Assembly: GCF_964204865.1 (NCBI RefSeq)
Contig: NC_135257.1
Coordinates: 1,116,001 to 1,180,000, forward strand
DNA length: 64,000 nucleotides
DNA from: Styela clava
Taxonomy: Eukaryota; Chordata; Ascidiacea; Stolidobranchia; Styelidae
Reading direction: 5' to 3'
Shown here: in pieces, positions 6,162 through 54,318 of the stretch
How the letters are laid out: each line of letters begins with the position of its first letter
How positions within the stretch are numbered: the first letter of the stretch is position 1
Position numbers and translations under genes: made by a program
Notes under the pieces: generated by a model
What the model was told of the DNA's origin: nothing
What the model saw: only the letters and a program-made list of their open reading frames with translations
The model's database searches: none

Positions 6162-9122
6162 TCATATTATTTGAAAAGCTGACGGATCAAGTATATAGCC
6201 GCCTAGGTATACCTTTTTCAATGCTTGTTTGTATGCATCGTAATTCATGTTTCGAATACTATCAGCCAAAGAGTTCCATAATTTAACACCTAAATATTTT
6301 ATTGAATTTTGTGTTAGTTTGGTGGTGAAACGATGCACATAGTAAGAACCATGGGTAGAAGACCGTGTACTATGTGAATGAATATTACTTTGCTTATAGA
6401 AATAATGAGTAAATGTGACAGGGAGTTTATTGTTATGATGTTGATGCATCAGTTTCAGTACCTCTATTTTATGAATATCTGTCAGTTTTATAATTTGAAG
6501 TTCATGGTAGATTGGATTGAGTTGTTCGCGACGTCCACTACCAGAAAGAGCACGGATGGCTCTATTTTGGATAATCTCGATTTGATGTAATAGAGTTCTA
6601 TTGGCTGAACCCCATGCAATAATGCCATATTGAATGTGGGTTTGGAATAGAGAATGGTAAATCATACGGAGAGTTGTTACAGGTACAAAGTGCCTAAGTT
6701 TGTACAGTATTCCAACCGATCTAGATAGCTTAGCAGCCAAGTTCATTATGTGAATATCCCATTTCAATTGGCTATCCAAAAATATGCCCAAATATTTGTA
6801 AGAACTTACATTTTCTAATCTAGTGTTGCCAATATCAATCGAAAATTTGGTTTGAGTTTTATGTTTATTTGGTGAAATAAGCATAGTTTTGGATTTGTCG
6901 ACGTTTATAGATAATTTATTAGCCTTCATCCAATTAGCTACTTTTACTATTTCAGAGTTCACTCTTGAATGAAGAGCAGGGAGAGATTTATCGCTGTCGA
7001 GGAGATTGGTGTCATCCGCGAATAATTTTGAGAAGAATGATGAACAATGGGCGAGATCGTTGATGTAGATCAAAAATAATAAAGGCCCCAAATTAGATCC
7101 TTGTGGGACCCCGTGTGTCACAGGTAAGATGCACGAGCAGTAGTTTCCTACTTGAACGTATTGATTTCGATCACTTAAATAACTATGGAGGAGTTTATTA
7201 GGTAATCCCCTGACGCCATAATGCCACAACTTGTTCATTAGGATATCATGATTGACAGTGTCAAAAGCCTTCTTCAGATCGACAAAAATTGCACTCACAA
7301 ATTCTTTCCTTTCTAATTTGTCATAGATATAAGAAATTGTATCTAAAATTGCGTGTGATGTGGACTGATTGTTTTGGAAGCCAAATTGGTGTTTGTTTAT
7401 TACATTATGTTTTGTGAAAAAATTGGTCAACCTAATGTGAATTAGACGTTCAAATATTTTATTAATTGAAGAGAGGATAGAAATTGGCCTATAGTTTGAA
7501 ACAATTTTTTTGTTACCAGATTTGAAGAGAGGTATCACTCGAGCGACTTTGAGTGATGAAGGGAAGATTCCAAATGCGAGGGAGCAGTTGAACAATTTCA
7601 CGAGAAAAGGCGCGAGCAGTTCAGCAACGAATTTTAGGAAGCGAGGTGGGATGTTATCCGGGCCAACTGCCTTTCTTTCCTTCAAATTCAGAATTTCCAT
7701 CATTAATTCGGATTCAGTGGCCAAAGTCATGAAAATGGATTTACTAACACGGTTACAAAGAAATGGCCTAAAGTCACACATATCATTGGAAAACTTGGCT
7801 GCCAAGCTAGATCCGACCGTAGAGAAATACTTATTGAATTCAGCCGCGATTAAGCAACCGTCTTTCAGTATACTGCCATTTTCAAGACAGATTTCCTGAA
7901 TTATTTGTTTATTTGAGTTATTTTTTGTGGTTGTAAGTTGGTTTATAATTTGCCATGTATACCTTGGATTGCCCTTGTTCTGAGAGATAAGATTTTGGTA
8001 GTGAATTTGCTTCGCTTTTTCTAATGCGGAAGTAAGTATGTTTCGATACTTCTTAAAGTATGACCGTTGCAGAGGGTTGCCACATAAAAAATGGGTTTTA
8101 AATAACTTATTTCTATGTCTCGTACAATTGATCAACCCTTTGGTTAGCCATGGCTTTAACCTTAACCGTTTTTGCCGACGTGATAGTGGTCGAAGTGGGG
8201 CATGCCGATCGATGGTACTAACGAATGACTGTATGAATTCATCAAATATGCTGTCAAAGTTCTCAGCGTTTAAACTAATTGTGGCAAATCGATTATTTAT
8301 GCTGTTTTGAACCTCAGATCGAAAGGCATCAATTGAGAACCTTGACATATCCCTTGACAATATACACTCATTCGTTTTAATAGGTTTGATGCCACTTAAA
8401 CAGCAAAGGATGGGATAGTGATCGGTTACGTCAGAAAGAACAACATAAGAATCTATTTTTAAGTGCGTTAAATTGGTATACATGTGGTCAATAAGGGTGG
8501 CTGAGGTGGGGCTGACCCTTGTGGCTTCAGATATTATAGAAATAGCATTGTGTGACACAAGCATATTGATATAGTTCATAATTTGAGTATTGATAACAGC
8601 TGAAAATAAATTAATATTGAAGTCACCTACAATGAGAAATTTTTTATTAGCCAATTTGGCCAGGGATGGTTCGAATATGTTCGTAAAATCAGAAATATCG
8701 TTGCGTGGGTGTTTGTAAATGACACCAATTACCAGTTTGTCAGTGGCATTTTCTAAAACAATTTCAAACCATAAGTTTTCGCAGTTAGGATATTGAACGC
8801 TATTTTCTACGGTTACAGTAAACGTAATATCGTTTCTGATATAGGCGCCTACACCTCCTGCTCTAGTAGCAGATGGTGCGTGGATAAAGTTATATCCATC
8901 AATGCCTATGTTAGAGGAAAAATTATTAACTAGTTTGGTTTCGCTTATAGCTATTATGTGTGGGGGTACGGACAAGTGAGATAACAGAAAAGTTAATTGA
9001 TCGAGATTTTTATGGAGAGAACGAATATTCATATGAAAAATAATCAGATCAGTAGACGTACAAATGGAATTCAATTTTGAAACTTCGATACTGTTGCAAA
9101 CAAAATTACAGTTATTGGGCAT
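6162..9122 (-). CDS. LINE ORF2: AP-type endonuclease and reverse transcriptase
   Basis: 986 residues, uninterrupted. The N-terminal third is an apurinic-type endonuclease: NIRSL at residues 32-36, SETKL near 60, GDFNINLF near 166 and SDVTDHYPI near 230. The reverse transcriptase spans roughly residues 480-760, with FVDLKKAFDTVNHD, GVPQGSNLGPLLFLIYINDL, the catalytic FADD and KYLGIFLD. The C-terminal part holds the thumb-like FQTHIQYGIIAWG region common to CR1/Jockey elements. The enzyme nicks target DNA and primes reverse transcription of its own RNA. There is no stop or frameshift, so this copy is probably young. No RNase H domain is visible. Confidence 0.92.
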   Translation of the reverse strand: MPNNCNFVCNSIEVSKLNSICTSTDLIIFHMNIRSLHKNLDQLTFLLSHLSVPPHIIAISETKLVNNFSSNIGIDGYNFIHAPSATRAGGVGAYIRNDITFTVTVENSVQYPNCENLWFEIVLENATDKLVIGVIYKHPRNDISDFTNIFEPSLAKLANKKFLIVGDFNINLFSAVINTQIMNYINMLVSHNAISIISEATRVSPTSATLIDHMYTNLTHLKIDSYVVLSDVTDHYPILCCLSGIKPIKTNECILSRDMSRFSIDAFRSEVQNSINNRFATISLNAENFDSIFDEFIQSFVSTIDRHAPLRPLSRRQKRLRLKPWLTKGLINCTRHRNKLFKTHFLCGNPLQRSYFKKYRNILTSALEKAKQIHYQNLISQNKGNPRYTWQIINQLTTTKNNSNKQIIQEICLENGSILKDGCLIAAEFNKYFSTVGSSLAAKFSNDMCDFRPFLCNRVSKSIFMTLATESELMMEILNLKERKAVGPDNIPPRFLKFVAELLAPFLVKLFNCSLAFGIFPSSLKVARVIPLFKSGNKKIVSNYRPISILSSINKIFERLIHIRLTNFFTKHNVINKHQFGFQNNQSTSHAILDTISYIYDKLERKEFVSAIFVDLKKAFDTVNHDILMNKLWHYGVRGLPNKLLHSYLSDRNQYVQVGNYCSCILPVTHGVPQGSNLGPLLFLIYINDLAHCSSFFSKLFADDTNLLDSDKSLPALHSRVNSEIVKVANWMKANKLSINVDKSKTMLISPNKHKTQTKFSIDIGNTRLENVSSYKYLGIFLDSQLKWDIHIMNLAAKLSRSVGILYKLRHFVPVTTLRMIYHSLFQTHIQYGIIAWGSANRTLLHQIEIIQNRAIRALSGSGRREQLNPIYHELQIIKLTDIHKIEVLKLMHQHHNNKLPVTFTHYFYKQSNIHSHSTRSSTHGSYYVHRFTTKLTQNSIKYLGVKLWNSLADSIRNMNYDAYKQALKKVYLGGYILDPSAFQII

Positions 9123-9179
9123 CTAGGTTAAGGGAATACCATCATGAATATTTGCTAGTAAAATAATATAGCAACTGAC

Positions 9180-10091
9180 CTATCTGATGAATGATAGATC
9201 ATTTTCATTTCTGATTTGTCTTGCGTTAGTATCGTCATTTTTCTTGACAAAAATTTTGCCATTACTAGTCCATAGATATTTGTAACCACATTGTCTTTTT
9301 CGCTCCCTTGCTTGAAAATACAATGATCTTGCTGTTTTAGTTAGGTTCTCCACTATGAATATTTTGTTGAAGTTGAAAAAATTATTTGGATCTTTTGCTG
9401 TTCTCAGGTTTTTCCGGCTTTTAATTATGTTGGTTCGGACTCTCCTCGATGTGAATCGAGCAATTATTGCAGAAGATTTTTCTGAGTTGTCATAAGCTAG
9501 TCTGTGTGAATTATAAATGTCTGCAGTTGTTATGGTCACTCCAATTAACTTGGACAGTTTGCATACAAGCAAGTCTGTGTTTTCATTTTTTTTGTAAGTG
9601 ATACCGTGAAACTCGAGACATTCTAGTCGAGATCTTCTTTCTTGATCTTCGACGCGAGCTTCCAGGTCATCACATTCATCTTCGAGCTCCTCCACTAGTT
9701 CTTCTAGATCTTGAATCTTTTTTTGCTGCTTTTTAACTATGTCTTGTGTGGATTTAAGTGTTTTATTAACAGAGTCAAATTTATCTGACAAGAATTTTTG
9801 ACTTTCTCCAAGGTCACTCTGAATTTTGGCTATCACACCGAGCTCGCTTCGCATTTCTTTCATTGAAGAATCCAGGGAACTCAAGATGTGTTCAAAATTA
9901 GACGTTGCGACTTTAGAAGAATCCGATTGACTGGATGGTGATGGTTTGGTTGTCAAGCATTCATCAATCATTGAGGGCAATTGTATTAATACTTGGCGAA
10001 GAATGGTGTTGGTGATCACTGCCATGAGTGTGCTGTCTTCCTCCTGTGATGTGCTAGGCGATTCAGGTTTTGGTCGCTTGGAAGAATCCAT
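9180..10091 (-). CDS. LINE ORF1: coiled-coil RNA-binding protein
   Basis: 303 residues. A Ser-rich N-terminus is followed by a long heptad-rich coiled coil (about residues 75-150, including QDLEELVEELEDECDDLE). An RNA-binding-like region with LECLEFHGI and SSAIIARFTSRRVR comes next. The C-terminal block (YLWTSNGKIFVKKND then IRNENDL) resembles the FP25K-like C-terminal domain shared by many invertebrate LINE ORF1 proteins. Such proteins trimerise and coat LINE RNA. It ends 57 nt before ORF2 starts. Confidence 0.85.
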   Translation of the reverse strand: MDSSKRPKPESPSTSQEEDSTLMAVITNTILRQVLIQLPSMIDECLTTKPSPSSQSDSSKVATSNFEHILSSLDSSMKEMRSELGVIAKIQSDLGESQKFLSDKFDSVNKTLKSTQDIVKKQQKKIQDLEELVEELEDECDDLEARVEDQERRSRLECLEFHGITYKKNENTDLLVCKLSKLIGVTITTADIYNSHRLAYDNSEKSSAIIARFTSRRVRTNIIKSRKNLRTAKDPNNFFNFNKIFIVENLTKTARSLYFQARERKRQCGYKYLWTSNGKIFVKKNDDTNARQIRNENDLSFIR

Positions 10092-10100
10092 ACTCTATGC

Positions 10101-14884: not shown

Positions 14885-15427
14885 CTATCCAGATTTGAAA
14901 AGAAGGATGGCTACCTGACCCAAATAAAAATATATGAAATGTTTAGTTTCGTGTGTGACATAACTTCCAAAATTTCTACCAACAATGCAATGCCAAGTGG
15001 GATTGTATTTCTTGTCGAATTCCTTCTTTATAAATGCAGCTATGTCTTTTTCAATGTTGAATTTTTCAATCGCCTGTGGAATTGAAGAATCAGAATTTTT
15101 TAGAAAGAGTTTAAATGGTTTATATCCCAATTTGACCTGATGCTGGTAATAAGGTAATAGATTGTGAAATAGAGTCAAATTTACATACAAGAAGCAGTAA
15201 CAGTTTAGTGTAAAATGAACAGAACAATTAATATCTACTGCCGATATTCTAGCGAGTCAACTTCCTGTTGCAACATATACCAAAGATGATCACATATCGA
15301 GCATTTTATGAAGACTCGACTGACATGGCAAAATTAAAAGAATCACCTGAGTTGTACACTCAATAGCATCATTCTGCATTTCTTCACACATATCTGCATT
15401 TTTAATCACAGCTTTTTTGTCTCCCAT
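14885..15427 (-). CDS. DYNLL: Dynein light chain LC8
   Basis: Two coding exons, 15427-15347 (81 nt) and 15073-14885 (189 nt including stop), join in phase 0 to 89 residues, the exact LC8 length. Exon 1 gives [20 protein letters not shown] and ends ..CTTQ before a GTGATT donor. Exon 2, after a CCACAG acceptor, gives [20 protein letters not shown] and the near-invariant [33 protein letters not shown] end. LC8 is a homodimeric hub and dynein light chain that binds short linear motifs in a beta-strand groove. A CAG at 15437-15439 just before GTCAAAATG suggests a 5' UTR splice acceptor, so at least one non-coding exon probably lies upstream. Differences from human LC8 are confined to the N-terminal region and a few positions in the helices. 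Confidence 0.96.
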
Positions 15428-21505: not shown

Positions 21506-21579
21506 TTTAATATCCGATCAAAGACAGTGACAGATACAAGGCACAAAAACAGTTGCAATATAAGCTGCAGTTACATGTA

Positions 21580-24500
21580 TTAGAGAATCAATTTATCAGA
21601 TGCTGGAGAGAAGACTGGTAGTTCTTGAGGTGTGTCTCCGAGATATATACCGCTCTCGGTGCTCGCGCCAGTCAATTGAACACGATCTGCATTACGGTCC
21701 CAGTTTGTTCCAGGAATGAATCCTTTTCCTTTCCGCCTGAAATATATTGATATGAATGTGAGATTTTTGGCAACGTGTGACCACTGTTGAATATTTGAGA
21801 AAATTTTACAGACTAGGCGTTATTTGATTTCGGAATTGAGTCCTAGTCGGATTCGATTCTCCACGTGATTCAGGACGTAATAATAAAAAAAAAGGACCCC
21901 ATATGCAGGATACCCATTATTCGTCTATTTGGATGTCTTTCATAGGCGATATTTTCCTAATACCGACATATCATACTATTAAATTTAAAAAAAAGCATAA
22001 GTTTCCACCAATTATGTTGGAATCTCTCATTTCATTAAAACAAAATGTTTTGTTCGTTTAACTGCATCAATTTCTTCTGCTTTCAACATAACTGAAAAAG
22101 TATTATTTTTACCTTTTTATGACAACAACAATTGCCGCTACCACGGCACAAAGTACGATTAACGCGATGACCAGGCCTACAATAAGTCCAGTTTTACTCT
22201 TTGCCCCTGTACCCGGTGCGTGTGAAGGTTCTAAAAGAGAAAAATGTAGTTTTAGGTAGTTCAAAGAATTCAAGTAAAAATAAACCCTTCAGCATCTATG
22301 CATTATACAAATGAAATCAATTGAACTTGGTGTAAAAAAGAGAATTAATGAATTTAGGTTCACAGATATTAAAAATTTGGCATCAAGCTTGACCGAATGC
22401 TTATGGATCTGTAATCCGATAGCACTATCATAAGCTTATCTATATACATACTAGACCTGGTATTTGGATGAACGGAAATAATTATTTCTTACCCTTTATT
22501 GATTTTGTTGTGCTTTCACCTTTGTTCATGGCTGTAGTTTTCAGATCATCTATTCGTGGAACAGGACTGATTGAAGCTGTCATCGTCGTAGACGACCTCG
22601 AAGAAGGTTTTCTTGTAGTTGCTTTCTTTAGCACTGTAGTTGCTTTGACAGTACTAAAAGTTGTGGACAATGCTGATGTGGTCGGTATAGGAGTCGTGTA
22701 CGCTGCTCTAACCTCTTCGTCACACGATTCAGGCCCAATGACAGCCCATCTTGAATCTTCTTGACATTCATACTGAAAAATAATATAATTGTACGAATTC
22801 TGTTCAATCATGTGTTTTAAAAAATTGTCCAAATTGTCTCTTTAATATATTCTCTTTTTAAACACAAAAAGCTGAAAAACTCCAACCAAAGGATTACAAC
22901 GAAGATGCTTGAATCGTTTTGTAAAATAAGATATAGCTAATTAATAAGAGGCTATACTCACTTGAAAAGCGATTCCTGAAATTTCGGGACATGTTACATT
23001 TATTAACGATCCTACTTTATTTCCACACGATGGTTTTCCCAACACTGCTTCGCTTGGTGTTGATGATTTCAATAAAATACTGTAACAGTTTCGTACTAAA
23101 AAGATATTAATGAAGCGTTTAAACCAAGTGGGATGTTATTGAATGCATATTAATCGTGTGTTTTTATCAAGTTCGCAGTGAAAAGTTAGCTAATTTAGTT
23201 TTGTTCATTTGGCGTTACGAAAATTATGTTGCATCCACTCAGGCCGAAGTGAAAAAACAAAAACATTTAGAGACCGCCTAAATGTGAAAGATGCAGAAAC
23301 TATTTAATGAAACGCGTTTAGCGTTGTTTGAATGAAAACTTGAAGTATCTGGGTACAGCGCATTAGTTGGCAGTTGCAATTCTGCAAATTTTCTGGCAGA
23401 ACATATTTATGCAATGCCAGCCATGGTTATTCGTAACGAGGTAAATTTCAGTATTGCTATCATCCACAAATTGCCGGTTACGACAAGACTTTGTTTATAA
23501 AAACAAAATTACATTCAGTGAGGGCGCTTACCAACCACATTCACTCTGAAAGTGCAAGTCGCTCTATTTCCACTTCCATCCATTGCATTGTATGAAAATG
23601 TATAAAAACCTTCTTTCAACTTGACAGGGGGTTCCATATTGTACTGGAAATATGTAGAAAAATGATCATTGCGGTCAAAATAATATATATACTGTTTTCG
23701 AAAGAAAAAATTTGAAAAATATACTTACAAAACTTCTTAATGTGACCGGTTGTCCTGAATTATCGGTGGGGTTGGGAACAGTAAAATTAAGTTCAGCCTC
23801 ATCGCTGCATTCGTCTGTCTGTATTTTGATATCATCAGGACAGGTGTCTCCAAAATCAGGCGCCTCGTTGTCATCTGAAATTACAGAAATAAGTCAAACA
23901 ATCACAAACACATACGCACCAACTATGATGTGTATTGAACATCAGAGTAACATCTTGCAACTGAAACGTTACAATTCTTATGGGTCCTGTTTCCCATCGA
24001 TTTTCGAAACTAGAGAAAAATAGTCCAATGAATGATAGTATCTATTTTTTGTATAAAAATACTAATTAACGCACCGAAATCGGTTGAGTAATGTCTTGGA
24101 TAACATAAGTTTGCTAATACGGACTTGAAAACTGAACTTACTTGTTGAAGCCATTTGGACACATGAGTTGTTGGCAGAAATATATTCATAATGATTCTGA
24201 CACACGCATTTATATGTGACGTCACTGGAAGTATGAACCGGAAGGCAGAGATGAGGACAGTTGGATTCTGCACAAGGACTTTTACCTAAAATATTTCAGA
24301 TTACTATTTAACAGAAAAGTTGTTAACGTAAAACAACCATAAACGACTAAACGAGATTATGACAACTGAATCATAGCAAAACGGTTTGCCATTTACTGCC
24401 CCACTGACATTCTAGTGCGCCTACTGCACGAAGATAACATGGTATTTTCAGTAGATGTTGGCATTTCAATAGTCACCCGCCAATGTATGACCTTGCTTTG

Positions 24501-27500
24501 ATCAAATTTGCATAAAAATGTTCGGATTTAAAAAAAAATTACATAAATTTGTAAGAATGATATTTCTTTTTTTCCAAATTTAGTTGTCAAATGTTATAAG
24601 TTATATAATAGGTAGCTTTGTGCGCCCGGAAATGGGTCAGATGAACGAATACAGTCTCATATATTAACTAATCAAACAAATATCCATCTGAACAAAACTA
24701 AAATGCGAAAAACATATATCATGATGAAAATGTTCCTTTACACAATTATTCCAAGTCACCGCGTATAATTGGAAATTTAGATCAATACTTTTTCTGCGCG
24801 CACGGCGTACAATGCATTACAATAACGTGACGACAGAATTTTCATTCACAAAGCGGCCAGTCCTTCGTATTAGGATGCGTGTGTGCCAGCCAAAGTGACT
24901 TTCGTTCCGTTTTCAGGACAATCAGTCAACTGTGTGGTACACAACACGCAATAAAACAACGTTTTTACCTATCAAAAGTTGCTCTCTTTTCTAAGCTAAT
25001 AACTGAAACATAACGTTACCAAATTAGAAATAGTATCGTATCACAAACGAAAAAACGGAGCAGCTGTTATGTTATCTGGCACCGCAAAACTAGCTGTTTT
25101 AACGTGATTTTAACCCAAAACGACCCGGAGCGTCAGTCCTTACTTGTAATTTACGAAACCAAAAATATTAATTGCTTTATACCCCATAGGTTTTGAAACT
25201 GCTATGACCAACTAGCTGAGGCAATGCGATGATAACAACCGGACTACTACAAGCCGGTAACAACGAATTGAAGATAAACTTACCGTTGTGAAACGTACTG
25301 CTGTCATACACATATAAGGCGGAAAGTTGATAAAACATTTGGGGCCCGAACTGACGAACTTCATCTGTTGTTCCTGTATTGTTCTTCGACCTCATCACAT
25401 CATGAACACTCACACGAACGAGATTTTTGCTTCCCATATCGGATACATAGAGATAATTTTGGTAATATGCTATCCCGGTAGGGAAGGGACGTTTCTGTAG
25501 AAATGAAAAATTTGTATTTTACCAATTTAAAGATTAAAAACTCGCATAATTATGGGACGAGATAGTGAAAAAAAGACATATGTTCAACAAAACATGTGGA
25601 AAGCTAACTATAGTCCACATAAGTTTAGTTTGTTCCATCGCGTGCTAACAAGATTAGCGTAGCGTCAAATATAAGGAATTAAAGAAACGTGACGTAAGTT
25701 TCTAAATGTAAATTTTGCAAATGACGTTGCGTCCAATTAGGAATTTGTATTTAAATTAGATAATTTCCTGAAATACCCTGAATAAGGCAGATTAAGATTA
25801 TGTCAAGTTGCATCAGAAAGTTTCATATTAGTATGGTAAAGACAAAATTCGATTTATAGTGTCTAAAACATTGGACATAAAACAATCATTTGCTTTTCCA
25901 AGTCGAATTATCTTGCTATATTAGGTATATATTAAAATTACACGGAAACGTGATATGAGAAACCTACAATACCGGGCCAGTCAGTGGTTATATCATATAC
26001 CTCCACGCTCTACTGTACCTTTGTTGACGGCATTTTGTATTTTCCATTGGTTTGGTCGTTCAGATTTAGCCAACCAATGGCATTTTCTTTAATTTCTGTC
26101 CAGTAAAGCACATTTCCTGAAATAGAACACGATTAAAAATGGAGTTGGAAATATATATGAGGAACTGTACCCATATAATAGGATGAATGAAAAATGTATG
26201 AAATGAATATATGCAGGTGAACGCATTATCACGCACCAACCTCAAGCTTTGTGAGACATTATTGTGATAACACAATCACAAAAAAGTATTTGTGTTTCAC
26301 TGTGTAGTATTTTAACCTCGTTTTATAATACTTAATACAGCATACCTTCTATGTCGAGGGACAAACCATGAGGTGTCGATTTCGATTGCACTATAACTTT
26401 TTTATCACTTCCATCCAACCGCGAGCTTGATATAACCCCGGATTGCAAGCCGGAAAAGGATAACTGCCCCCAATCAGACCAATAAAGGAACCTGAAATAT
26501 ATATCGATTTAAATTTGTACCTAACTTTATACCTAAAGGGATAGTCAGTTCTTTATGCAGGATTTATGAGTGATAAAAGTTAAATTTTCCACTTGTGATG
26601 AGATTCTAGCCTGGTTTTTAGCATTCATCCAAACGTTACAGTTGTTCGATTTGTCGGCATGTGCTCACGACGTACGTTACCATACCATACTCGTATACAC
26701 CCTGTATAACTGATCGAAAGATTAAAGGTTGCATTACAGCCAAGAAATAATAAGTATCATTCGGAGCTATATGCATGTAACATTATGTCGCTAGGTCGGT
26801 TTCCATTGGCACAAAATATTGTATTTTTATTGTGCTCACGTTACATTGACCAAAGAAAAATATCTAAATAAAACGCCCATCAAAAAATACTTGTTCACGC
26901 CCACCGGAAATAGGAAGTGACATAATTTCTGTTCTTAGTAAGATATCGATCTATAATCATGAACGAGACGATCTAAAATTGCCTTGTCACAACTACTAAT
27001 TTTGTGAATGAACAGTGACGTGTAATTTCACACACACGTTACTACGAAAAATGTCTGTGTTTTTTAACGTCTCATTTTACACTGAATGAAATTTCATTTG
27101 TATCTTCACAAACAGACGTTAGTTTCCCTTCATTTTTCTATATTTGTTGAAATAAGAATCGGTAGATCACCCATCTCATAAAACGTAGGGGGGACGAGCA
27201 AGCTTGAGACATATCATGAAGCGAAACTAAAGTTTTGCAGGTTCAGACTAACACCCCTAAAACGCCTCTCTCACGCCCATACCAGAAACCAACCCGATGT
27301 AGTATGAGCTATCATTTTATATTTAGCTACTTCTGTTTCATATTCTTGTCAAATTTAAGAGCATGAGCGTTTTTATTTAAAAATACAAGTTTATTTATAA
27401 CATGAAGCATACAGATTGTACAGTTTCTGTTAGTTTTTGGTAAAGTTGTATTCGGAAAATTGAAAAACGCCTCTCAAACGCCCAAAATAATGCCAATTTT

Positions 27501-30500
27501 CAGGATATGACTCAAAAAATCATGGAATGACATTACATTTTCAGTCCCAAGCCCGCCTACTTCGCATTCCCACACACCCAAGAAACGCCAATAAATTTGT
27601 TCTGATACCAAGTAAAAGCATGTTGTTTTATCAATACCATGTGATCTCGAACCACTCGATACTTATCTCCCCAATATGAAATACTATGCATTCCTGATGT
27701 CACTTTCTTCAGAAAGTGACATCAAGAATGCATTTGTTATATCCGAAACTAGAAAGTTATTAAAACTTTGTTTTATTAACAATAATATCTAGATGAAATA
27801 GACGAAGATGAGTGTCGTGAGGGCCTGCTTTTGCAGTTAAATGCAAAGCATGGCTTCGTGTCCAATAAGTTAAAATTAGCATTCAGCGTTGAATATTAGT
27901 GACAACATCACGCCAAGTTAAATCAAAACGTTCTATCAGATAAAAATTATCTTACGGCCAGACAAGGCCAAATTGGCGTATAGTAAACAAATTGCAGCTA
28001 GTATGTCTATCAACAGTGATGAAACAATATTAAACTCTTACCCTCGCTTCGTGTCAATAGTCATAGCCCACACTCTATGTAAATCTTGTACGTGAAGCAT
28101 ATGTGGATACGAACCATCTAGCTTCGATACATACATTGCGTCTCTTTCTGAGTCGACCCAATACATATTTTGAGACTCCACATCAAGCGCAACAGAATAC
28201 ACTAGATTGAAAATTGAGAAAACATTTACATTATTATTGTGCTGTTATTAAAATCGATTAGCAACCAAATAGGTTTTCTCAGAACTAATTTCTGCGAGTG
28301 GAGTATACCGTACGGTATACGTTTATCGCCGTGCAGAATATATCACCATATATAACTCGCATAGGAATATTAATATTACAACTAATTCATCAAAAAAATT
28401 CATTTGCCTCGAAACTTTGAACGAAAAAATGGAGCAAAGTATTTATTATATTCCTGGGATACAATGTAAGTTCCTAGTGAAACTAAAATAATAAAAAAAT
28501 GATAAATATAAAATATTTAATTGCTTTAATTTATATAGTCAATCGAAGATTATTACTGTAAACGTTTTTTCTTATATATATTTGCATATGCCCGATTAAA
28601 TCATTTAAATATTACCATTGACATTTCGGATACTTGTTCGCGATTTCTCCGATTCCGCCTATTTTGTCTGACTTACAGATTCGAAATACCACGATTTATA
28701 AAAAGACTCGATAAAACGACGGATATCTTAATATCAGAAGAAGTAGGGTTTGCAGTAATCCCATTTTAAATCCAACAGTTTTCTGTTTTCAAACCTATTA
28801 TAACGTTTCAATGAAGTATTTCTACATTGTGGTTTACAAAATTCTCGTATGTTCGGGCTCAGGATATCATATTATACAACCCACCTTGGGACTCATTGAC
28901 AAGGACCGTCTGGTATCGACCAAATAAATCAGCTCGTGATACAGTTCTTGTTCTCTCGTCGGCCCAGTACACTAACTTGGTATTAGGATCGTAAGCTACA
29001 GAAGTAGGCATTCTTAGGTTTTGCACTTCAACTTCCTGTGGTGCTATTGGACTTCCCATATTCATCTATAATTTCAAAAAAAAGATGGAATACTTTTACC
29101 GATACAAAAGTTACATTAAAACATAGTATAGCAAAATGACACCAAACTACCTTAACTACGCACTAGTCTTCAAAAAAGTGGAAAATGACTTCGGTCAGTT
29201 GTCGCTGCATAGACTTAAGGAACAAAACGTTGTGCCATAAGTATTGTATAGACTTTGATGCATGGTATCAAATTTTCTTTAATGTAGGCTAATCAGTTTT
29301 CGAATTTTTATTTCATACCCGTTTAAATGCATAATTTCCAATTCTACCTACAATTGTAATGTGATTGAAATTATGCATTGGAACATCAGGTCGTTGCAAT
29401 AACATATGATGATGTCCTTTATAATATAATAATGTGGACCAATCTGAAATTTAGTAAAGTAATTTCCAACCTGGTATATTTTTGAATGTTTTCCATCCAA
29501 CATAAGCACAAAATTATCAAAAATCATGCTGGCACGACAACTTCTACCATCAGATTGTATTCTGAATCCTGTCCTGCATTCACACGAATATTGGTTTATT
29601 CCGTATCTGGCGACACAAATGTGCTGACATGGACTTTTTGTACATTCGTCTGTAATATAGATATAATGCAAGAGATAGTAAATAACATCGAATGTTACAT
29701 ATTGGCTTAAGTAGAAACACAAAAAGCAATAATACATCGTTACAATTAGTATTCAGTCCTATGAAAAAATTGAAAAGAATTATCCATCATACGAGTTTTA
29801 TCTTCTTCCGAAAAGGGTTGTTCATATTTGCTGAAAACTGTGACTCCTCTGGGTATTTGCGAATAGTCAAAATCATATGATTGTACGATCTCGTTTGTAT
29901 TTTTGTCGATAAGAAACATCGATTTGCGTAGATCGTCAGTTACGTACAAATTATTCTGCAAGAAAAGAGTCCATTTTTGTATACTTTAATAAGAAATGAT
30001 AGAACAAAAAAATCAGATGCTCAAAGTTTTTCCATTTCTTACTTTGTAAGATGCCAAGCCAAAAAAGTATGATGAATTTGTGGAATAAACTTCATGAATG
30101 GTTTCAATATCACGCCTTGTTTTTAACCCGAAATATCTGATGCGACTTATTCCTCCTCTTTCTTTTAGGCGCTCTGTCCAGTAAAATCTAAAAAATCAAT
30201 TGTAGATTCATAAGTTAAAGATCAGAGCAAGTCCATTGCACTAAAATTCGAACGCAATCTTGATGGTAAATTTGATGGAAAATTATTAACCTGCACCTAA
30301 AATGACTACGGGAATTCATTTTGAAGTAATTAGAAAAATCTCATTTTATCAAATTCAATAATAGCCATAAAAATCTTATTCCGTTATTACAAATTTAATA
30401 TGAGATATTGTTGCATCAGATTTACAAGTTGTGAGAAAATAGTTGTTCATGTCATTTTCAGGAAAGCCCAGGCACGTTTTAACGTACACTTTAGACTACG

Positions 30501-33321
30501 TTGTATTTAGGCCAAGATAAATGGTTTCTATTTTTAACAAAAAAAATTTTGTGTAACAAGAAACTATGCATAAAGACGGAGTGCATTGGCTCCATTTATA
30601 ATTAGTAAGCGATGTAAAAGCAATAAAATATGCAAGCTAAATGCGAACCACATGTACATAATTTAACGTCGAATCGGAGATATGAAATATTTCTATGAGA
30701 CTAAACTCAATTGTAAAATTCGGTGAATATAGATTTATTTATATATATATTGATAATGAATGATACATCAAATTCCAACAAAGTTATAATTTCAGAAGAA
30801 ATAAATTATAAGTAAATTATAATTTATTCCGCACAGACTGCTATGCTTACCTATGATTGACAAAGTCAATGGCAACATCGCTAATAGTTTGTACTTCAGG
30901 AAAGGTATGTAAAAGTTGATGTGAATATCCTTCTAAACTACTCCTCCATATACGGCAGTCGTCTTCACGCTTTTCGGTCCAATAAATATACCTAGAAAAA
31001 TGTATTACTTTAAAAATTGATTGGTAATTAATTAAATACGTTTTGTATCATCATTTGTGATAAAAAAAAGTTAATCACGGTGAAGTATAAACAATATGGA
31101 ATCGCCAATCTGGTAATTAAATATTGAGCTAGCTTAATTTTTCTGAGATTTCTAACTAATTTCGTTTATTTCTTGGCTTTAATCTCATTCAACTTGGAGA
31201 GCAATTTATGCAGCAATATGATTGAAAAGTTTCTGTCATTCAGCTCATTATTGCCGCATACTAATATAAACCACGACTCAAATCACCAGGATGAGAAGAA
31301 CCAACAGGCTGTTGTTTTAACCTTACCTATCAGGCGGGTCAACCGCCACTTTAGCCGGTATTTCGCTGTCTATCGAAAACAAATTTCTGTAGTGGCTGAA
31401 GTTTCGATTTGCCACCATTATCCATTTGAAATTTGAATCAGTCCAGTAAACATTTCCTGATACCCAATCTACTGAAAGGCTGTCGATTCCCCAAGCCATT
31501 CCTTGGAAAACCTTCTTGTGTTCTTTCGTCTGAAATTATTCGCGATGTACATATAGATTAATGTTATTTCGCGGTTGGATGGCTGATTCTACATGACAAC
31601 ACATCGTCTGAGATACAGATGGACCATTAGCTGATAGTTGGGAAGAAACACAAATCACGACCATCTTACATTGTTAATGAAGTGATTAATAAAGCAAAAT
31701 CTTTCGATTTTGAATGATGCTGAATTTCGCGTTTAGTGAGTACTGCGTTGTGTTATCTTCATTTGTGCTGCAAAACTTTAATTGTAGATGTCGGTGCTAA
31801 TGGCATGCTAAACAGCACGTGACTTCAGTTTGCATTTATTGACTACATTACTACGCTTTAATATCTTCCTATTAGAGCGTATGTCTGTCATAGTACAATC
31901 GTGGGCTTTCATTGACCTTACCGGAAACTGGATCAATATGGCTGGCATAACACGTCATATGGAGAACACGGCAATGCGTAATCACACTACGTTCAGGAGA
32001 AACTTTCCTACATTTTCTAGAGGCGTTTACAATTTTGTACAAATAGTTTGATGTCGAAAAAATACATCATCCTTATTGAAAGCATACTTCTACATTCTCA
32101 CCTTTAGGTCATAAACACCGATGAAATTTCCAGCATGGTCACTGTAGTAGAGTCTCTTTGCATGATAATCTGCGGCTATAGCCCATATTTCACCATTCCA
32201 GAGACTTTGAAAAAGTAATTTTTTGTTGAGCTCTGTGCTGTCGTTCGAATTTTGATTCGGATCGGTGAAATAGGCATAAGTCTGAGTAAAATAAGTTCAA
32301 TGTTAATGTTAACGTATATCTATAGAACGCAAAATATTCCTAATTCATATTCCTAATATTCAAAAAACATTCGATAAAGGGGTTTGAAAAGCTACATTAA
32401 AAGATCAATTATGAAATGTTACCATTTCGAATGGACTATAAACGGGAAAAGATAGATACAATATATGAAGCGAAAGTGGTTTAATTGGGTTGTTATTGAA
32501 ACAACATTATAAATAACAAAAAATACCTTGTGCAAAAAGAATATTCGCCTTTTCATTGCCCAAAATATTAAATCACGATCGAAATCTTCAGAGGTGTCAT
32601 TCTGAACAGAAAAATAACATTGCGATATGTGATAAGAGAAGTGAAAATTGATCAATTAACTAGTTATTCTACACGTGACACGGCAAGATTTAAAGGCTAG
32701 TCAAGATTTAAAATGGGAGGAACCCGCCATATTTAACAAAAGACACAAAGATGAACCTTTCCATATGAGGGAGTGTAACAGAAATAGATATTATAGAAAG
32801 ATTTATATTATGATATACTAACAATAACGCCAATCCACCCAAAGTGGTAGCATGACTAAACATACGTCTATAAATTTGTCCTTGTTAGGATTTGTTTGAT
32901 CTAATTAGTCTATTATAAACATACTCACATTTGCTTCAGCTGATTCAAAAATCGCACCTGTGGTAAAGGAACATAAATTTTCATTAAAATATGGCGTCAC
33001 TTATATTCAATCGAGTAAGATTGACTGGCTGCAGATATTTTTCGTGTTCGGTTTCTGAGGCGAACTTTTTACAAAATAGTTACATGATGAATATAAATAT
33101 ATATACACGATGGATCAATTAACATAATGTTGAAAATTTAATGGAATCTTGCCTGGCCCTTTGTAACCCTTTCCAACTTGACCCAGGACAACCTTCGATG
33201 GTATTTATTGAAATATTTCTATGAAAAATTTTTGTGTTGATAGAGAATCATGAAATTAAAACTCACCAATAAAGAAAAGTAACACAGCGGAAGCAATGTA
33301 CCAGCGAAAACTTGCCACCAT
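21580..33321 (-). CDS. LDL-receptor-like YWTD/EGF/HYR/sushi single-pass receptor
   Basis: Twenty-one GT-AG exons join without a frame break to 1,018 residues: 33321-33267, 32957-32929, 32601-32527, 32281-32102, 31529-31327, 30991-30851, 30187-30043, 29955-29793, 29649-29471, 29065-28885, 28201-28042, 26491-26346, 26116-26019, 25494-25284, 24285-24142, 23874-23729, 23643-23532, 23095-22962, 22772-22493, 22230-22113, 21736-21580. The order is: signal peptide (MVASFRWYIASAVLLFF), YWTD propeller 1 (about 29-330; YYSD, YWTD, YWTE, YWTE, YVTD), EGF (331-368), propeller 2 (370-655; YWAD, YWVD, YWSD, YWTE, YVSD), EGF (656-703), HYR (704-789; PDFGDTCPDDI to GSGNRATCTFRVNVV), a sushi-like module (790-855), a Ser/Thr-rich stalk, a TM helix (about 939-963) and a 55-residue tail without NPxY. 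Paired propellers and EGFs recall LRP5/6-type receptors, but LDL-A repeats are absent. The ligand is unknown. The end of exon 8 (GTATGA donor) is the least certain junction. Confidence 0.87.
27686..27733. repeat. 48-bp perfect-length hairpin in receptor intron 11
   Basis: Arms of 22 bp (27686-27707 and 27712-27733) match at 21 of 22 positions around a TTCA loop (ATGCATTC..GATGTCACTTTC). The intron (26492-28041) also holds repeated aAACGCCTCTC blocks near 27257 and 27467. It may be a very small MITE or the core of one. Confidence 0.7.
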
Positions 33322-33327: not shown

Positions 33328-34087
33328 CTGCAATATCTTGCAAGTTGTTATTTGAGTCTTTAAAACTTTACTGTGATATATCTAGCCTAGTTTTGATCGA
33401 ATATTCGAACTAACTTGTCCTAGAATTAAATGCGTGAAGTAGCAAATAGGTATATCTAAATTCCAACAATTACAAAATTAGATATTGCTAACCTGATCAT
33501 TTTTATAAGTCAAATAACTATCCTACCAACTATCTTGTACTACAAATACCTCTACTATCTGTACTAACGCTGCCGAGTATGCATTTGTGACTTATGACAA
33601 AAAGTCATTATGTCCTTTATAAATATAGTCTAATTTATGACGTCACAGTCGATGAATGAAATCGCCTGGGCCAACAGCGACGCTATCATTCTTACTGGAC
33701 ACGCCCTCTGTCCACCCTAGTCTGCAACTTTATTGACCAGCACATAATTTGAACTGTATAAAGTTTGTTGATCAATAAGAATGTGAATCACTGTTTCTCA
33801 GCAAAATTTTTCCGCTCATATATCACGATGAAATTCTTCAACTAATGTATTAAAAGCAATGCGTCTTGATTCTACCTGATAAATCAATACCAGTGACAAC
33901 GCAGTTACAATAAATTCACGCCTGGTTCTAACAATTCATTCAGAAATAAAATAGCGCGACTTCGCTTATCAGTGAACTATCCGTACAAGTTGCACATCTG
34001 AAAAACAATATTCGGTCTTTTCATAACGTCAAAGAAATACGTACACCGATTTTTCTGCTGTTTGAATAACTTTCAAAGATACTTACT

Positions 34088-39567: not shown

Positions 39568-41500
39568 TCACAATGATTCTACACCAACGGACGAAACACC
39601 AGGCGTCGCCGGTTGAGCATAGCCAGATTTTCTTCGATAAGTCCATGTTTTCATGTTAATTAACGTATAAATTGTCGCTAAGGCGTACATGCCTGCCAAC
39701 ACAGACCCTATCACCACTACAGCCAAGTTTTGTCCAGAATTACGCAAAATTCTGTCGTTAGGACACTCGCCTGTGTCTACCACCTCCGAGCTGCTACCCG
39801 ATTCACATATCCATACGAACCATTCGTAGCCTGCGGAAAAACAAACGCAAGCGATATAGAGGATGGCAAAAATGGCGTTTAAAGCAGCGTCCAATTTAAA
39901 GGGAATTATTTCCGACCTTGAAAACATGTAAAATATGAATGTGAGAAGAGTCAGCAACCAACTTGGTAGTGTGAGAGCAGAATAAAACAAAACTTGGTCG
40001 TTAATTTCAGGAGCCTCGTTGCTTGTTGACATGACTGAAATATAAAAAATAGATTTTCAATAACCAGCAGCCGAGGGTTAGAAAAGTATTCTGATTACCT
40101 TAAAAGCCAAGGAGCGAGAAAGGGAGAGTTTTACACATTTCAGATAATGTACACACCTCCAACACGCCATTCTCAGAACAGCGCTGAAACGACTGAGCTT
40201 AAATTCTCAACTTTGTTGTACAAAAATAAAATTCAGCACAAATATGAATAAATATAAACGTTATTAGTCTGTTCGCCGGAAAAATATGAAAACTATCCTC
40301 ACTGACTTCAATAATTAAGGTAAAACTCATCATTGGTTCATGTCAATGTTTCATGTATTAATTAGTTCGCAATTATTTCATTCCTCAGCTTTTGATAATG
40401 TGATACCATTCGTACTTCCGACCATCTTTATCACGGTGAAGTTCAAATTGGTGTTTATTTGTAATAAATTAAAAAGTGTTTAACTATATAACTTGACGTA
40501 CAAATTCAAATCGATAATCGTATTGCTGTGGAGTGGTTTGGACTGTGTGCTGAAATTTATTATTGCTAAGTGAACGACGATTTTAAATCATATGATGCAG
40601 TGCAGACAAACGTGAAAATTCTTATTGAGCTTGGTGAAGTATATTCATTACTCCTTAATTTAAATATGCTCAATTTTATGAGGTTCCTTTTTTATTCTTA
40701 TACAATTTATAACACCATCTTATATCTAATTGAAAATGTAAAACTATAAGCCTGTAACTATATTTTTCTACTTAATTTTTCTGCTTACGCATGCATGTAT
40801 ACAAATTAACTATCCATCAGAAGTATTTAGTTATTTCCAATAACTAATATATATAGATATACGAAAATTATCGGTAAGCATTTTTGCGTGAACCTGGAAA
40901 TGCTTTTCATTTGATGTAATATAATTTTGGCTTCGATTTAGAGTTTATAAGAGCACGTAGCGTCAACGCAAAACAACAGACAATGAATTAGCCAGTGGCG
41001 CAGATTCGAGTTCTTACAATTTTAACGACAATCTTGCAACTCAATTGGGAATTCGATTTTATACAGAAACAACATATTCACTAGGTTTCAAATTTTAGCA
41101 TCGCAATTACTGCACACCGTAAAATATTTCGGTAGCCCTGGGCGGTGAACAGCAAGCAACATAATTATATTCATACTTTTACAACAAGAACAGGGCAAAC
41201 ATGCAGAGTGAGGAATTTGCTTTTTGTGTAATTAAAAGTAAAAGAAATTGAATGGGTTTCAGTTGATATATTTGATGATGGGAATAGTCAAAGAGAATCA
41301 GCGTCTCTGGCTTTTCACAAATCGTATATAGTAGCCATTCCTCGTTGGGAGTTAGCGTAAAATACCAAACATCACTTACCGTCCCCAATGTAAACGATAC
41401 CCCAGCAAAATACACCGATAACGATTAGTGACAGCTTGAGAATTCCTTCTACAGACTTCACATATTCGTGGTTGAGTCTTGGTGGACAACAATTGTCCAT
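39568..41500 (-). CDS. MARVEL-like four-transmembrane protein
   Basis: Two exons, 41500-41380 and 40034-39568, join in phase 1 to 195 residues. Exon 1 gives MDNCCPPRLNHEYVKSVEGI then LKLSLIVIGVFCWGIVYIGD and ends before GTAAGT. Exon 2, after a TATTTCAG acceptor, adds three more hydrophobic segments (TLPSWLLTLLTFIFYMF, AIFAILYIACVCFSAGYEWF, NLAVVVIGSVLAGMYALATI) and a polar C-terminal tail. A helix preceded by KSVEGILKL, four TM segments and this length fit MARVEL-domain proteins (MAL/CKLF/plasmolipin type), which act in membrane apposition and vesicle traffic. The loop between TM3 and TM4 has a Cys pair (WICES..GECP) that may be disulfide-linked. The exact subfamily is not clear. Confidence 0.72.
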
Positions 41501-45824: not shown

Positions 45825-48771
<2,947 letters not shown>

Positions 48772-49484: not shown

Positions 49485-52400
49485 TCACAGACAGTTGGTT
49501 AAAAATTCTAATTCCTTTATGAAATTTGGTAATTTTCGAACTTTTTCTATATTTCTCCGACATGTTATTGAAGTTTGTATCTGTTTTATGACTGTTTGAA
49601 CGTTAGGTATCTTTTTTTGAAATATAACAGCATTTCTTTCTAACCAGATCTTATATCTTGTTATTGATATAAGTAATACTATAATGTTTTCATGAAAATC
49701 TGAAAAAAATACACTGTTCATTTGGGAAAAATCTAATAAAATGCAGGTCAAATAGTCTTCTCTTAAATTACTAATTTTCCTAATAACAGAAAAAATATAA
49801 TCATATATAAGTTGAGTGAATTCACATCTCAAAAATAAATGTGATATAAATTCTGGTTCTTTGCCACAGAGGGCACACAAATCATTTCCAGAAATCCACT
49901 TTATTCTTGCATGGGTTTTTAAAGGTAAAATTTCCCACATAAGTTTGTAATCAAAAGTTTTCAAATAATTTGGCAGTATTTTCCTGTGAATACTCTTGCA
50001 TGAATTCTCTATACTTCCACCACGTAAAAACACTAATCTAGAACCATTTAAAGAATTAACGATTTTATTGTAGAGCACTCTATGATTACCTTGAATAAAT
50101 TCATTTGATTTCAAATTATTCGTCCTGATGAAATCAAGAATAGCTTTATAAAATTGATTAGGAACAAATTTATGTAAAACACTGTTATTCGTCGACATTC
50201 TAAAGAACACACATAGTTGATGTCCAATGTTAGTTTCAGTATAATCCATTATAGTTTTTCTATCATTACTTGGGATGTTTCCCATTCTTTCACTGTAATA
50301 ATCAAATGCAGTCATTGAATACAAACACATTGTAAAAATTGGAATGTTTATGATGTCATAGCCACCGAATGGTTTTTCTTTACTTAATGTTTCAATGTTT
50401 AATAACGTCTTCTTACCACCAAATACAAATTTAACAATTTCATCATTGATTTCTCTACTAATTGATAATGTCATTGGAAATATTTTGGCACAGTATAGGA
50501 ATAATGGAAGTATTTTCATTTTTACTACTAAACACTTTCCATCGAAAGTGAGTGGAATATCACATAAATCTTCAATTTCATTTTTTGCTTTGTTCAAGCA
50601 GTTTGTCCAATTAGTTTCACTAGTATTGTAGTTCGCAAAGGTAACATTTAACACTTTTAGTTCTTTAACTGTTGTTACGCTTGTATGAAAATTGCTTTTC
50701 CATAATCCCAGTTTCATTAATTTTGTTTTTCTTGTATTAAGCTTGAATCCAGTAGCAATTTCAAATTGAACAATCTTGTTTAACGCATTTTGGACTGTTT
50801 TACGATTTCTCAGTGTTAACGTAATATCATCTGCAAATCCCAGACTTTTAATTTCCTTATTTGTAGGAGTCATGATTCCATGAATTTCTTTACATTTATT
50901 AATATAACATAGCAGCGGTTCAATTGCAATGATGAACATATGTAAACTCAATGGGTCACCTTGTCTTACACCTCGTTGTAGCTTTATTTTTCCGCTGAGA
51001 TATCCATTTATTAGAATCCTTGATTCTGCATCCAAATAGAGATCTTTTGTAAGTTGTAAGAATTTGCTTGTGAATCCAAACTTTTCCAAAACATTGTACA
51101 AGTATTCTAAGTCAACAGAGTCGAAAGCCTTGTTAAAATCTAAAGATATTAGTGTTGATTCATATGATTTATGTTGTTCTTGAGCACATAAATCTCTTAA
51201 AATAAATAATGTGTCCGTTATTTTCCGTCCTGGTACTGCTGTCTGATGAGGGTTGATGATTTCTGGTAGTACTTTTTTGATTCTGTTGGCTATAATTTTT
51301 GTAAATATTTTATAGTCAGTGTTCAATAGAGTTATTGGTCTGTAATTCATTATATCTTCTTGTTCTCCATTTTTATATATTAAAGTCGTATATCCCAATT
51401 TAATTTCTTTTGGGATGGTCGATTTGTCGAACATTTCTTGTATTATTTCGAAAACATCTTGACCCACTATATCCCAGCATTGCTTGTAAAACTCTACACT
51501 GAGTCCGTCAGGACCAGGTGTTTTGTTGTTTTTCATTGCTTTAATTGCTTCTGAAACTTCTTCGAGTTCAATGTCTTTCTGCAACATATCATTATCAGCA
51601 GTTTCAATTTTTGTGTCGACTGGAATTGCATCGAGGAATTCTTTTTGAATTTGTTCATTCGTTGTCTTTTTATTGAATAGTTCTTGGTAAAAATCTTGTA
51701 CAATTTGCATTTTGTCTCCCAATTTATTTTGGATAATTCCATCCTTGTTCTTTAACTTTTGAATGGACTTTTCTTTATTCCTCTTTCTTAATTTCTTGAA
51801 GAAGGATTTGGTACATTTTTCTTGATTATCATAGGAATCTGCCATGTTTTGTATTCGAATCTTGTTATCTCTTTCTTTTTGTTTTTTAGCCAAATTTTGC
51901 TTCATTTTGTTAAATTGAGTGAGAACTCTTTCTCCCATGTCTAACCTTTTTTTTAACTCTTGTAATTGGTTCATTTCGTTGTTGTACTCGTTTTGAGCTT
52001 TTTTAGCCAATTTCACTGAGTAGCAAACATTCAACTCTTTGATCTTATTCTTCATTTCAATCCACCATTTTGTTTTATTCTCAAAAAAGAATTTCAATGT
52101 TTTCCAGTTTGTCCACCTGTGTTTCAGTTCATTTTTAAATTGTTGATTGTCGTACACTGATGTATTATTTTTCCAGTAGCCTTTACCTCTTTCATCTTTT
52201 GTTTGGTTTATTTCTAACTGAATTGAGAAGATATCGTGATCAGACAAGTAAGTAGATTTACATTCAAAATTTTTTATATTACAATTTTTTGCAGAACAAT
52301 AAATTCTATCAAGTCTCGCTTGTATTGAATTATTTCTCCATGTATAAAATGGAGGAGCTTTGGGGAAACATTCTACAGAATCTATCATGTCAAAGCTTCT

Positions 52401-52931
52401 TACAAGTTCATTAAGAGCTTCCGAGACATATTCTCTTCTACTTCTTTTTGCAGTTGTAGATCGGTCTCTTTCAGGGTCGTGGACACAATTTGTATCGCCT
52501 CCTAATATAATGGGATATTGGGTATTTACAAATCTGTATATGTTTTTATAAAATAGTTCTTGGGTTGTGATATTCGTTCGACATGGTGCGTATATATTAA
52601 CAAAATGCATTTTTTCTCCAAATACATTTATATCAGTAGTAATCACTCTTCCAGTATTATCCCATTTGGTGTTTTCAAATTCAAACGTGGCTAATTTTGA
52701 CATTGTTAAAATTGCAACTCCTCTTGAATTGGATGTTGCAGAATTCCATAAGCTGTGTCCCCATAACCACTCTCTACTCCATTTTAATTCAACTTCCGGT
52801 GTGCTATGAGTTTCTTGGAGGAATAGCAAATCTGCTTTACATTTTGAAAGTTCTTGAAATAAGTTTTTTCGTTTCATATCTTCTCTTAGACCCTTGACAT
52901 TGAGAGTGAGTATGGTGAGATAAACCACCAT
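49485..52931 (-). CDS. Tx1/L1-type LINE ORF2: endonuclease and reverse transcriptase
   Basis: 1,148 residues without interruption. The endonuclease is at about residues 5-235 (LNVKGLREDMKRKN, LFLQETHST, GGDTNCVHDPERDRS, LSDHDIFSI). A Lys-rich linker with coiled-coil character follows. The reverse transcriptase is at about 460-760 (NNKTPGPDGLSVEFYKQCWD, SLDFNKAFDSVD, QRGVRQGDPLSLHMFIIAIE, the catalytic FADD). A C-terminal CCHC zinc motif (CALCGKEPEFISHLFLRC) lies near residue 1020. LNVKGLR, QETHST and the C-terminal knuckle place it in the L1/Tx1 group; the finer clade is inference. Confidence 0.93.
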   Translation of the reverse strand: MVVYLTILTLNVKGLREDMKRKNLFQELSKCKADLLFLQETHSTPEVELKWSREWLWGHSLWNSATSNSRGVAILTMSKLATFEFENTKWDNTGRVITTDINVFGEKMHFVNIYAPCRTNITTQELFYKNIYRFVNTQYPIILGGDTNCVHDPERDRSTTAKRSRREYVSEALNELVRSFDMIDSVECFPKAPPFYTWRNNSIQARLDRIYCSAKNCNIKNFECKSTYLSDHDIFSIQLEINQTKDERGKGYWKNNTSVYDNQQFKNELKHRWTNWKTLKFFFENKTKWWIEMKNKIKELNVCYSVKLAKKAQNEYNNEMNQLQELKKRLDMGERVLTQFNKMKQNLAKKQKERDNKIRIQNMADSYDNQEKCTKSFFKKLRKRNKEKSIQKLKNKDGIIQNKLGDKMQIVQDFYQELFNKKTTNEQIQKEFLDAIPVDTKIETADNDMLQKDIELEEVSEAIKAMKNNKTPGPDGLSVEFYKQCWDIVGQDVFEIIQEMFDKSTIPKEIKLGYTTLIYKNGEQEDIMNYRPITLLNTDYKIFTKIIANRIKKVLPEIINPHQTAVPGRKITDTLFILRDLCAQEQHKSYESTLISLDFNKAFDSVDLEYLYNVLEKFGFTSKFLQLTKDLYLDAESRILINGYLSGKIKLQRGVRQGDPLSLHMFIIAIEPLLCYINKCKEIHGIMTPTNKEIKSLGFADDITLTLRNRKTVQNALNKIVQFEIATGFKLNTRKTKLMKLGLWKSNFHTSVTTVKELKVLNVTFANYNTSETNWTNCLNKAKNEIEDLCDIPLTFDGKCLVVKMKILPLFLYCAKIFPMTLSISREINDEIVKFVFGGKKTLLNIETLSKEKPFGGYDIINIPIFTMCLYSMTAFDYYSERMGNIPSNDRKTIMDYTETNIGHQLCVFFRMSTNNSVLHKFVPNQFYKAILDFIRTNNLKSNEFIQGNHRVLYNKIVNSLNGSRLVFLRGGSIENSCKSIHRKILPNYLKTFDYKLMWEILPLKTHARIKWISGNDLCALCGKEPEFISHLFLRCEFTQLIYDYIFSVIRKISNLREDYLTCILLDFSQMNSVFFSDFHENIIVLLISITRYKIWLERNAVIFQKKIPNVQTVIKQIQTSITCRRNIEKVRKLPNFIKELEFLTNCL

Positions 52932-52961
52932 GAATTAAGTATATTTGACTAACTTGATTTA

Positions 52962-54266: not shown

Positions 54267-54318
54267 GTTTATGATATTTTAATATATATATATATCTTAA
54301 TTATACAGCGACTTTATT

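Follow-up and report, generated by a model that had tools for sequence, protein, structure and literature searches.

What does a receptor do that carries the paired YWTD propellers and EGF domains of the LRP family but neither LDL-A repeats nor NPxY motifs? The question is raised by a gene in a 64,000-nucleotide (nt) stretch of the Styela clava genome (contig NC_135257.1, positions 1,116,001 to 1,180,000), which we call the window; in our genome searches it is C9:1116001-1180000. The gene has 21 exons on the minus strand, from 33321 to 21580, and its predicted product runs from a signal peptide through a YWTD propeller, an EGF domain, a second YWTD propeller, a second EGF domain, an HYR domain, a small Cys-rich module, and a Ser/Thr stalk to a transmembrane helix and a 53-amino-acid (aa) tail. 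We propose, with moderate confidence, that it belongs to a small family of mosaic single-pass receptors, with members on C9 (the window), C8, and C10, that most likely serve in adhesion or cell-contact recognition.

Joined splice by splice, all 21 exons stayed in frame from an ATG at 33321 to a TAA at 21580, and each of the 20 introns followed the GT-AG rule. The joined coding sequence of 3,057 nt yields a protein of 1,018 aa with nine N-glycosylation sequons, and the product appears to be one type I, single-pass membrane protein. A preliminary description of this locus had made the same in-frame join, with exact coordinates, and had read one receptor with the module order given above; the join, the single receptor, and the order held up, and the name sushi for the Cys-rich module found no direct profile support. 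An ATTAAA at 21511 (21506..21511, minus strand), 68 nt past the stop codon, is a possible poly(A) signal. In a tblastn search of the window, the protein matched its own exons, and all other matches had E values of 0.85 or higher. A scan of 21.0-34.0 kb for repeats of at least 25 nt found no direct repeat and one imperfect 28-nt palindrome, at 33381-33424, directly upstream of the start codon. The features of the gene, all on the minus strand, are as follows.

21580..33321, minus: whole gene, 21 exons, 1,018-aa type I receptor (splice-by-splice join, GT-AG introns)
32929..33321, minus: exons 1-2, N-terminus with a probable signal peptide, aa 1-28 (hydropathy scan, hydrophobic N-terminus)
29793..32601, minus: exons 3-8, YWTD propeller 1, aa 29-331, with six YWTD-like motifs at aa 57-283 (motif scan, PDB matches to LRP2 and LDLR)
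29537..29644, minus: within exon 9, EGF 1, aa 333-368 (FXa_inhibition at 27.2 bits, cut-off 33.4; six Cys)
25284..29536, minus: rest of exon 9 to exon 14, YWTD propeller 2, aa 369-656, with five motifs at aa 423-604 (Ldl_recept_b at aa 504-540, motifs)
24142..24285, minus: exon 15, EGF 2, Cys 660-697, phase 1-1 (six Cys, phases)
23532..23874, minus: exons 16-17, HYR, aa 705-788, phase 1-1 block (Pfam HYR at 43.9 bits when isolated, cut-off 21.7)
22722..23095, minus: exon 18 and the start of exon 19, five-Cys sushi-like module, aa 790-851 (homology to the C8 paralog module, without a direct sushi match)
22493..22721, minus: rest of exon 19, Ser/Thr-rich stalk, running on into exon 20 (Ser plus Thr content)
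22118..22186, minus: in exon 20, transmembrane helix, aa 943-965 (hydropathy maximum of 3.6 over 19 residues from aa 947)
21580..21736, minus: exon 21, nearly the whole cytoplasmic tail (motif scan: no NPxY, YxxPhi, or acidic dileucine)

The core of the ectodomain belongs to the YWTD class B propellers: Pfam Ldl_recept_b matched the protein at 55.2 bits (cut-off, 21) in four stretches, the best of them at aa 504-540. The 11 YWTD-like motifs found by the motif scan fall into the two groups listed above, which we take to represent two six-bladed propellers, the first blade of propeller 2 being without a motif. In the PDB, LRP2 matched with an E value of 8.5e-138 for the whole chain. Its best stretch, aa 127-696, spans the joins from exons 5|6 to exons 14|15, and the match therefore speaks for the exon join beyond chance. 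Further PDB matches were LRP4, LRP6, LDLR, and nidogen (E value of 1.8e-18 for the nidogen chain), and the tandem YWTD-EGF units of LRP6 and LRP4 aligned to the receptor over aa 268-699 and aa 270-612, respectively. EGF models matched below their cut-offs (FXa_inhibition, 27.2 versus 33.4 bits), and both EGF domains have six Cys residues in EGF spacing (Cys 333-368 and Cys 660-697).

Downstream of the core, the HYR domain passed its Pfam cut-off of 21.7 bits both within the whole receptor (36.7 bits) and in isolation (43.9 bits). A frame translation of exon 17 alone scored 21.5 bits, and the climb to 43.9 bits upon joining, together with the co-linear match to a paralog (E value of 1e-87; see below), supports the exon join above chance. 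EGF 2 (exon 15), HYR (exons 16-17), and the Cys-rich module plus stalk (exons 18-19) each form one phase 1-1 block. Blocks like these commonly mark exon shuffling, by which the C-terminal modules were probably acquired. Ser and Thr make up 36% of aa 850-940, before the membrane. No LDL-A was found in the protein (E up to 10) or in the three minus-strand frames of 17.5-36.7 kb (E up to 1), where we also looked for, and rejected, hidden LDL-A exons. By motif scan, the protein is free of NPxY over its whole length, and its tail has neither YxxPhi nor an acidic dileucine. Both LDL-A and NPxY had been called absent in the preliminary description, and both absences are borne out; two marks of the LDL receptor family proper are thus missing, the second of which is common but not universal in that family.

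Is the gene alone of its kind? We searched the genome (376.6 Mb in 379 contigs) with the whole protein and obtained 30 matches at E values up to 0.01, of which 19 were its own exons (the two shortest of the 21 were missed) and 11 lay elsewhere. On C8, a YWTD place and an HYR place were 7 kb apart in the same order as in the window gene. The C8 paralog there (C8:18278784-18267567, minus strand) has 20 exons and encodes 1,034 aa, co-linear with the window protein (26% identity over 898 columns; E value of 1e-87), with Ldl_recept_b at 135.4 bits, HYR at 47.3 bits, no LDL-A at E values up to 1, and no NPxY. The third member, on the minus strand of C10, shows in order YWTD, EGF, YWTD, EGF, HYR, a five-Cys module, a Thr-rich stretch, and a transmembrane-like segment; one HYR exon alone scored 27.1 bits, above the cut-off. 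The single receptor of the preliminary description is therefore not a lone gene: the genome holds at least two paralogs of the same order and at least three such genes in total, one of them unassembled. These counts are lower bounds, since a probe of the C8 EGF2-HYR-module region found C8, the window gene (E value of 0.008), and two weak places (E values of 0.22 and 0.28) but not the C10 gene. Other YWTD places were on C1, C2, C5, and C16, where the HYR check covered loci L035 and L039.

The extracellular and intracellular parts of the C9 and C8 proteins differ in how far they can be compared. All six extracellular modules aligned at z scores of 4.9 to 18.5 (300 shuffles), and the stalk (1.6), transmembrane segment (-0.4), and tail (-0.2) did not stand out in this way, the tails having no detectable similarity. 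Because the extracellular modules align far above shuffles and the rest does not, the comparison suggests that the ectodomain is the part that was kept between the two genes. The C8 tail (C8:18267567-18267873) is longer and contains a PxxPxR stretch, PPLPHR, unlike the tail of the window gene. It also has one YxxL-type site, YGTL, near its end, and the C10 reading ends in YNVM.

How might such a receptor work? In the reading that we favor, the two YWTD/EGF pairs would lie farthest from the membrane and, like such pairs in LRP-family proteins, probably serve to bind protein ligands. The Ig-like HYR domain and the sushi-like module would lengthen the receptor, and the Ser/Thr-rich stalk, probably O-glycosylated, would raise it off the membrane. 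The tails would be specific to each paralog. Adhesion fits the module set. An LRP-type cargo receptor role would be unlikely without LDL-A and NPxY, and we favor adhesion or contact recognition over cargo uptake because the ligand repeats and tail motifs of the LRP1 type are absent from C9. We also considered a bolder version, with a small chance of being right: the YWTD-EGF-YWTD-EGF-HYR-sushi-like-mucin stalk-transmembrane order would represent an undescribed multigene family serving cell-contact recognition in this lineage, possibly of self and non-self, with like ectodomains on differing tails. Several points weigh against the family and adhesion reading. The sushi-like assignment, discussed below, is weak. 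The C10 gene is read as ordered parts and not assembled. A fourth place, about 35 kb off (C10:14118001-14129055; L050 and L038), has YWTD, EGF, and a hydrophobic segment but showed no HYR within the 10 kb retrieved, and could be a shorter relative. Finally, the lack of NPxY need not prevent uptake of a YWTD receptor, which other signals can also mediate.

This last point leads to an endocytic or scavenger role, in which an LRP-like receptor would have lost LDL-A and would take up ligands via its propellers. We consider this unlikely. Among solved structures, the propeller-EGF part is nearest to LRP2, and YGTL in the C8 tail and YNVM at the end of the C10 reading give uptake some chance; set against this, there is no LDL-A match, NPxY is absent from C9 and C8, and the C9 tail has neither YxxPhi nor an acidic dileucine. 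A Wnt/BMP-type coreceptor or modulator, acting like LRP4-6 via tandem propellers, has in its favor the alignments to tandem units of LRP6 and LRP4 described above. The tail, read by eye, is without the PPPSPxS repeat of the LRP5/6 type, and the C9 and C8 tails are without similarity to each other, and we consider this role unlikely.

The Cys-rich module, which the preliminary description had named sushi, bears on the origin of the C-terminal part. Searched as 70 aa, it matched nothing in Pfam or PDB at E values up to 10 and nothing in NCBIfam. On a profile of seven factor H CCPs it reached 1.5 bits, a score equaled by 117 of 999 full shuffles and 200 of 999 shuffles with Cys and Trp fixed (held-out CCPs reached 16-30), and on a 14-sushi profile it reached 2.7 bits, with 156 of 2,000 shuffles as good. 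The corresponding C8 module matched Pfam Sushi with an E value of 0.0028 (18.5 bits, below the cut-off of 20.7; Sushi was not listed for the whole C8 protein at E values up to 1) and scored 17.6 bits on the 14-sushi profile, with none of 2,000 shuffles as good. Aligned with each other, the window and C8 modules gave a score equaled by 0 of 2,000 full and 4 of 2,000 fixed shuffles, and the three family modules (C9, C8, and C10) have in common C..C.N..GS..NVTC...C...W...C. For the C10 module, Pfam gave nothing at E values up to 1. Against the genome, the window module alone matched only itself at E values up to 10, and the diverged paralog modules were missed too. We call the module sushi-like because it is homologous to the C8 module, itself a weak Pfam Sushi match. 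The earlier name thus finds no backing in direct profiles and survives only by way of the C8 homology, and the expectation that both HYR and sushi profiles would match came true for HYR alone, above its cut-off.

Two further results bear on the strength of this assignment. When the profile was limited to the seven factor H CCPs, the C8 module scored 7.5 bits, with 7 of 2,000 full and 18 of 2,000 Cys/Trp-fixed shuffles as good, and a profile of the family modules matched sushi with an E value of 0.0042 (probability, 8%) and HRM with an E value of 0.015 (probability, 3%). The family profile slightly prefers sushi over HRM, neither strongly; sushi-like by descent is a weak assignment and not a proven one.

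If the module were instead an HRM, as in adhesion G protein-coupled receptors (GPCRs), the C-terminal part of the protein could derive from such a receptor. The HRM profile was built from eight sequences. Of 31 HRM-family matches in the same genome, five were over the cut-off and ten were taken as loci; the profile included L008, L009, and, although it was below the cut-off, L011, and left out L010 (one residue different from L009) and the partial L006, L007, and L012. L013 to L015 were read as sushi, L014 and L015 being used as sushi sequences and L013 unused. On this profile the window module scored 15.1 bits, with 1 of 2,000 full and 10 of 2,000 Cys/Trp-fixed shuffles as good, and the 14 sushi controls reached at most 6.3 bits. 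The score is nevertheless lower than that of the weakest held-out HRM (19.3 bits; held-out HRMs, 19-45), and a 5-HRM profile gave a real sushi domain 8.6 bits versus 11.7 for the module. The C8 homologue, moreover, reached only 2.2 bits on the 8-HRM profile (168 of 2,000 full shuffles as good) compared to its 17.6 on the 14-sushi profile. The hypothesis was picked only after the sequence had been inspected, and no GAIN or seven-transmembrane match, as expected of an adhesion GPCR, was present in the frames of 17.5-36.7 kb (minus strand, E values up to 1; plus strand, E values up to 0.1). We dropped HRM as the identity of the module in favor of a sushi-like one, on account of the C8 homologue, and give the HRM origin a low probability. 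Three HRM exons on C10 (10359113, 10377099, and 10406471) lie within 48 kb, two differing by one residue and one similar; they probably represent HRM receptors clustered in tandem.

A membrane-anchored precursor, shed to free an EGF-like factor as pro-EGF is, would share with pro-EGF the general build of YWTD and EGF, one transmembrane segment, and no LDL-A; the juxtamembrane part is not EGF but HYR, sushi-like module, and stalk, and each EGF directly follows a propeller, which leaves this role very little chance. As for two separate genes wrongly joined at exons 15|16, where the domain type does switch, intron 15 is 267 bp long and without A[AT]TAAA, stops close the HYR frame upstream of exon 16, the ATG that starts exon 16 is in another frame, and in the C8 paralog a single exon, number 14, encodes EGF2 along with the first half of HYR; these features make a split, which the preliminary description had named as the outcome that would undo its reading, very unlikely, indeed close to negligible, as far as DNA tells.

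Elsewhere in the window, two long interspersed nuclear elements (LINEs) lie on the minus strand. The first (6165-10094) consists of two long adjoining open reading frames (ORFs), one with endonuclease and reverse transcriptase (RVT_1, 108.9 bits) and the other with Baculo_FP_2nd (54.2 bits), and the second (49488-54278) has a 1,149-aa endonuclease-reverse transcriptase ORF (RVT_1, 117 bits; zf-RVT) along with an ORF that contains a CCHC zinc knuckle. The minus strand also carries a dynein light chain exon (14888-15256; 111.8 bits), a ubiE/COQ5 methyltransferase exon (47362-47679; 65.9 bits), and a 162-aa ORF (39571-40056) that, judged by eye, has several membrane-like segments and that matched no Pfam model at E values up to 0.01. 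On the plus strand are a Synaptobrevin-domain ORF with a Cys-rich C-terminus (498-950; 49.1 bits) and a DDE_Tnp_4 transposase ORF (58589-59545; 50.6 bits). The plus strand of 17.5-36.7 kb had no domain above a cut-off; its one match at E values up to 0.1 fell far short of the score required. Neither Rfam (gathering scores) nor ARAGORN (bacterial code) returned anything in the window.

How does the receptor compare with known systems? It has tandem YWTD propeller-EGF units in common with LRP2, LRP4, LRP5, and LRP6, with strong sequence matches to LRP2, LRP4, and LRP6, and it differs from them in having no LDL-A match and no NPxY and in having HYR, the sushi-like module, and the Ser/Thr stalk. 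The complement-type repeats of LRP1 are LDL-A repeats. Clusters of complement-type repeats are where LRP1 interacts with many of its known ligands, and NPXY, YXXL, and dileucine motifs are present in its tail (PMC11325810). Two papers characterize the HYR domain as a module that has an Ig fold or is related to Ig and is likely or possibly involved in adhesion (PMC3340373, PMC10263333). The first of these portrays Drosophila Uninflatable (Uif) as a large transmembrane protein with EGF, CCP, and HYR domains, a suggested adhesion role, and the ability to antagonize Notch; Uif also has CLECT, CUB, and FA58C, and the available part mentions no YWTD propellers (PMC3340373). The choanoflagellate RTKC8 resembles the window receptor in carrying HYR domains on a single-pass receptor and differs in the tyrosine kinase of its tail, again with no mention of YWTD in the part of the source at hand (PMC10263333). 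Among the literature matches listed, we recognized no description of the YWTD/EGF-HYR-sushi-like combination.

The absence of LDL-A is not unique to the window receptor, since pro-EGF, nidogen, and Drosophila Cueball likewise combine YWTD propellers and EGF domains without LDL-A, pro-EGF and Cueball as single-pass proteins. We liken these three to the receptor by their general build, the sequence comparison being that with the nidogen chain, and we know of no HYR or sushi domain in them. Each part of the receptor is known; what appears to be new, as a variation on YWTD receptors, is their order. The YWTD/EGF core, most familiar from the lipoprotein and Wnt coreceptors, seems here to have been rebuilt, without LDL-A, into a receptor that stands on a stalk and bears modules of the adhesion type. 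Found in at least three diverged genes of one genome, it makes a concrete case of receptor evolution, probably via exon shuffling, and the family provides defined genes for tests of ligands and cell contact.

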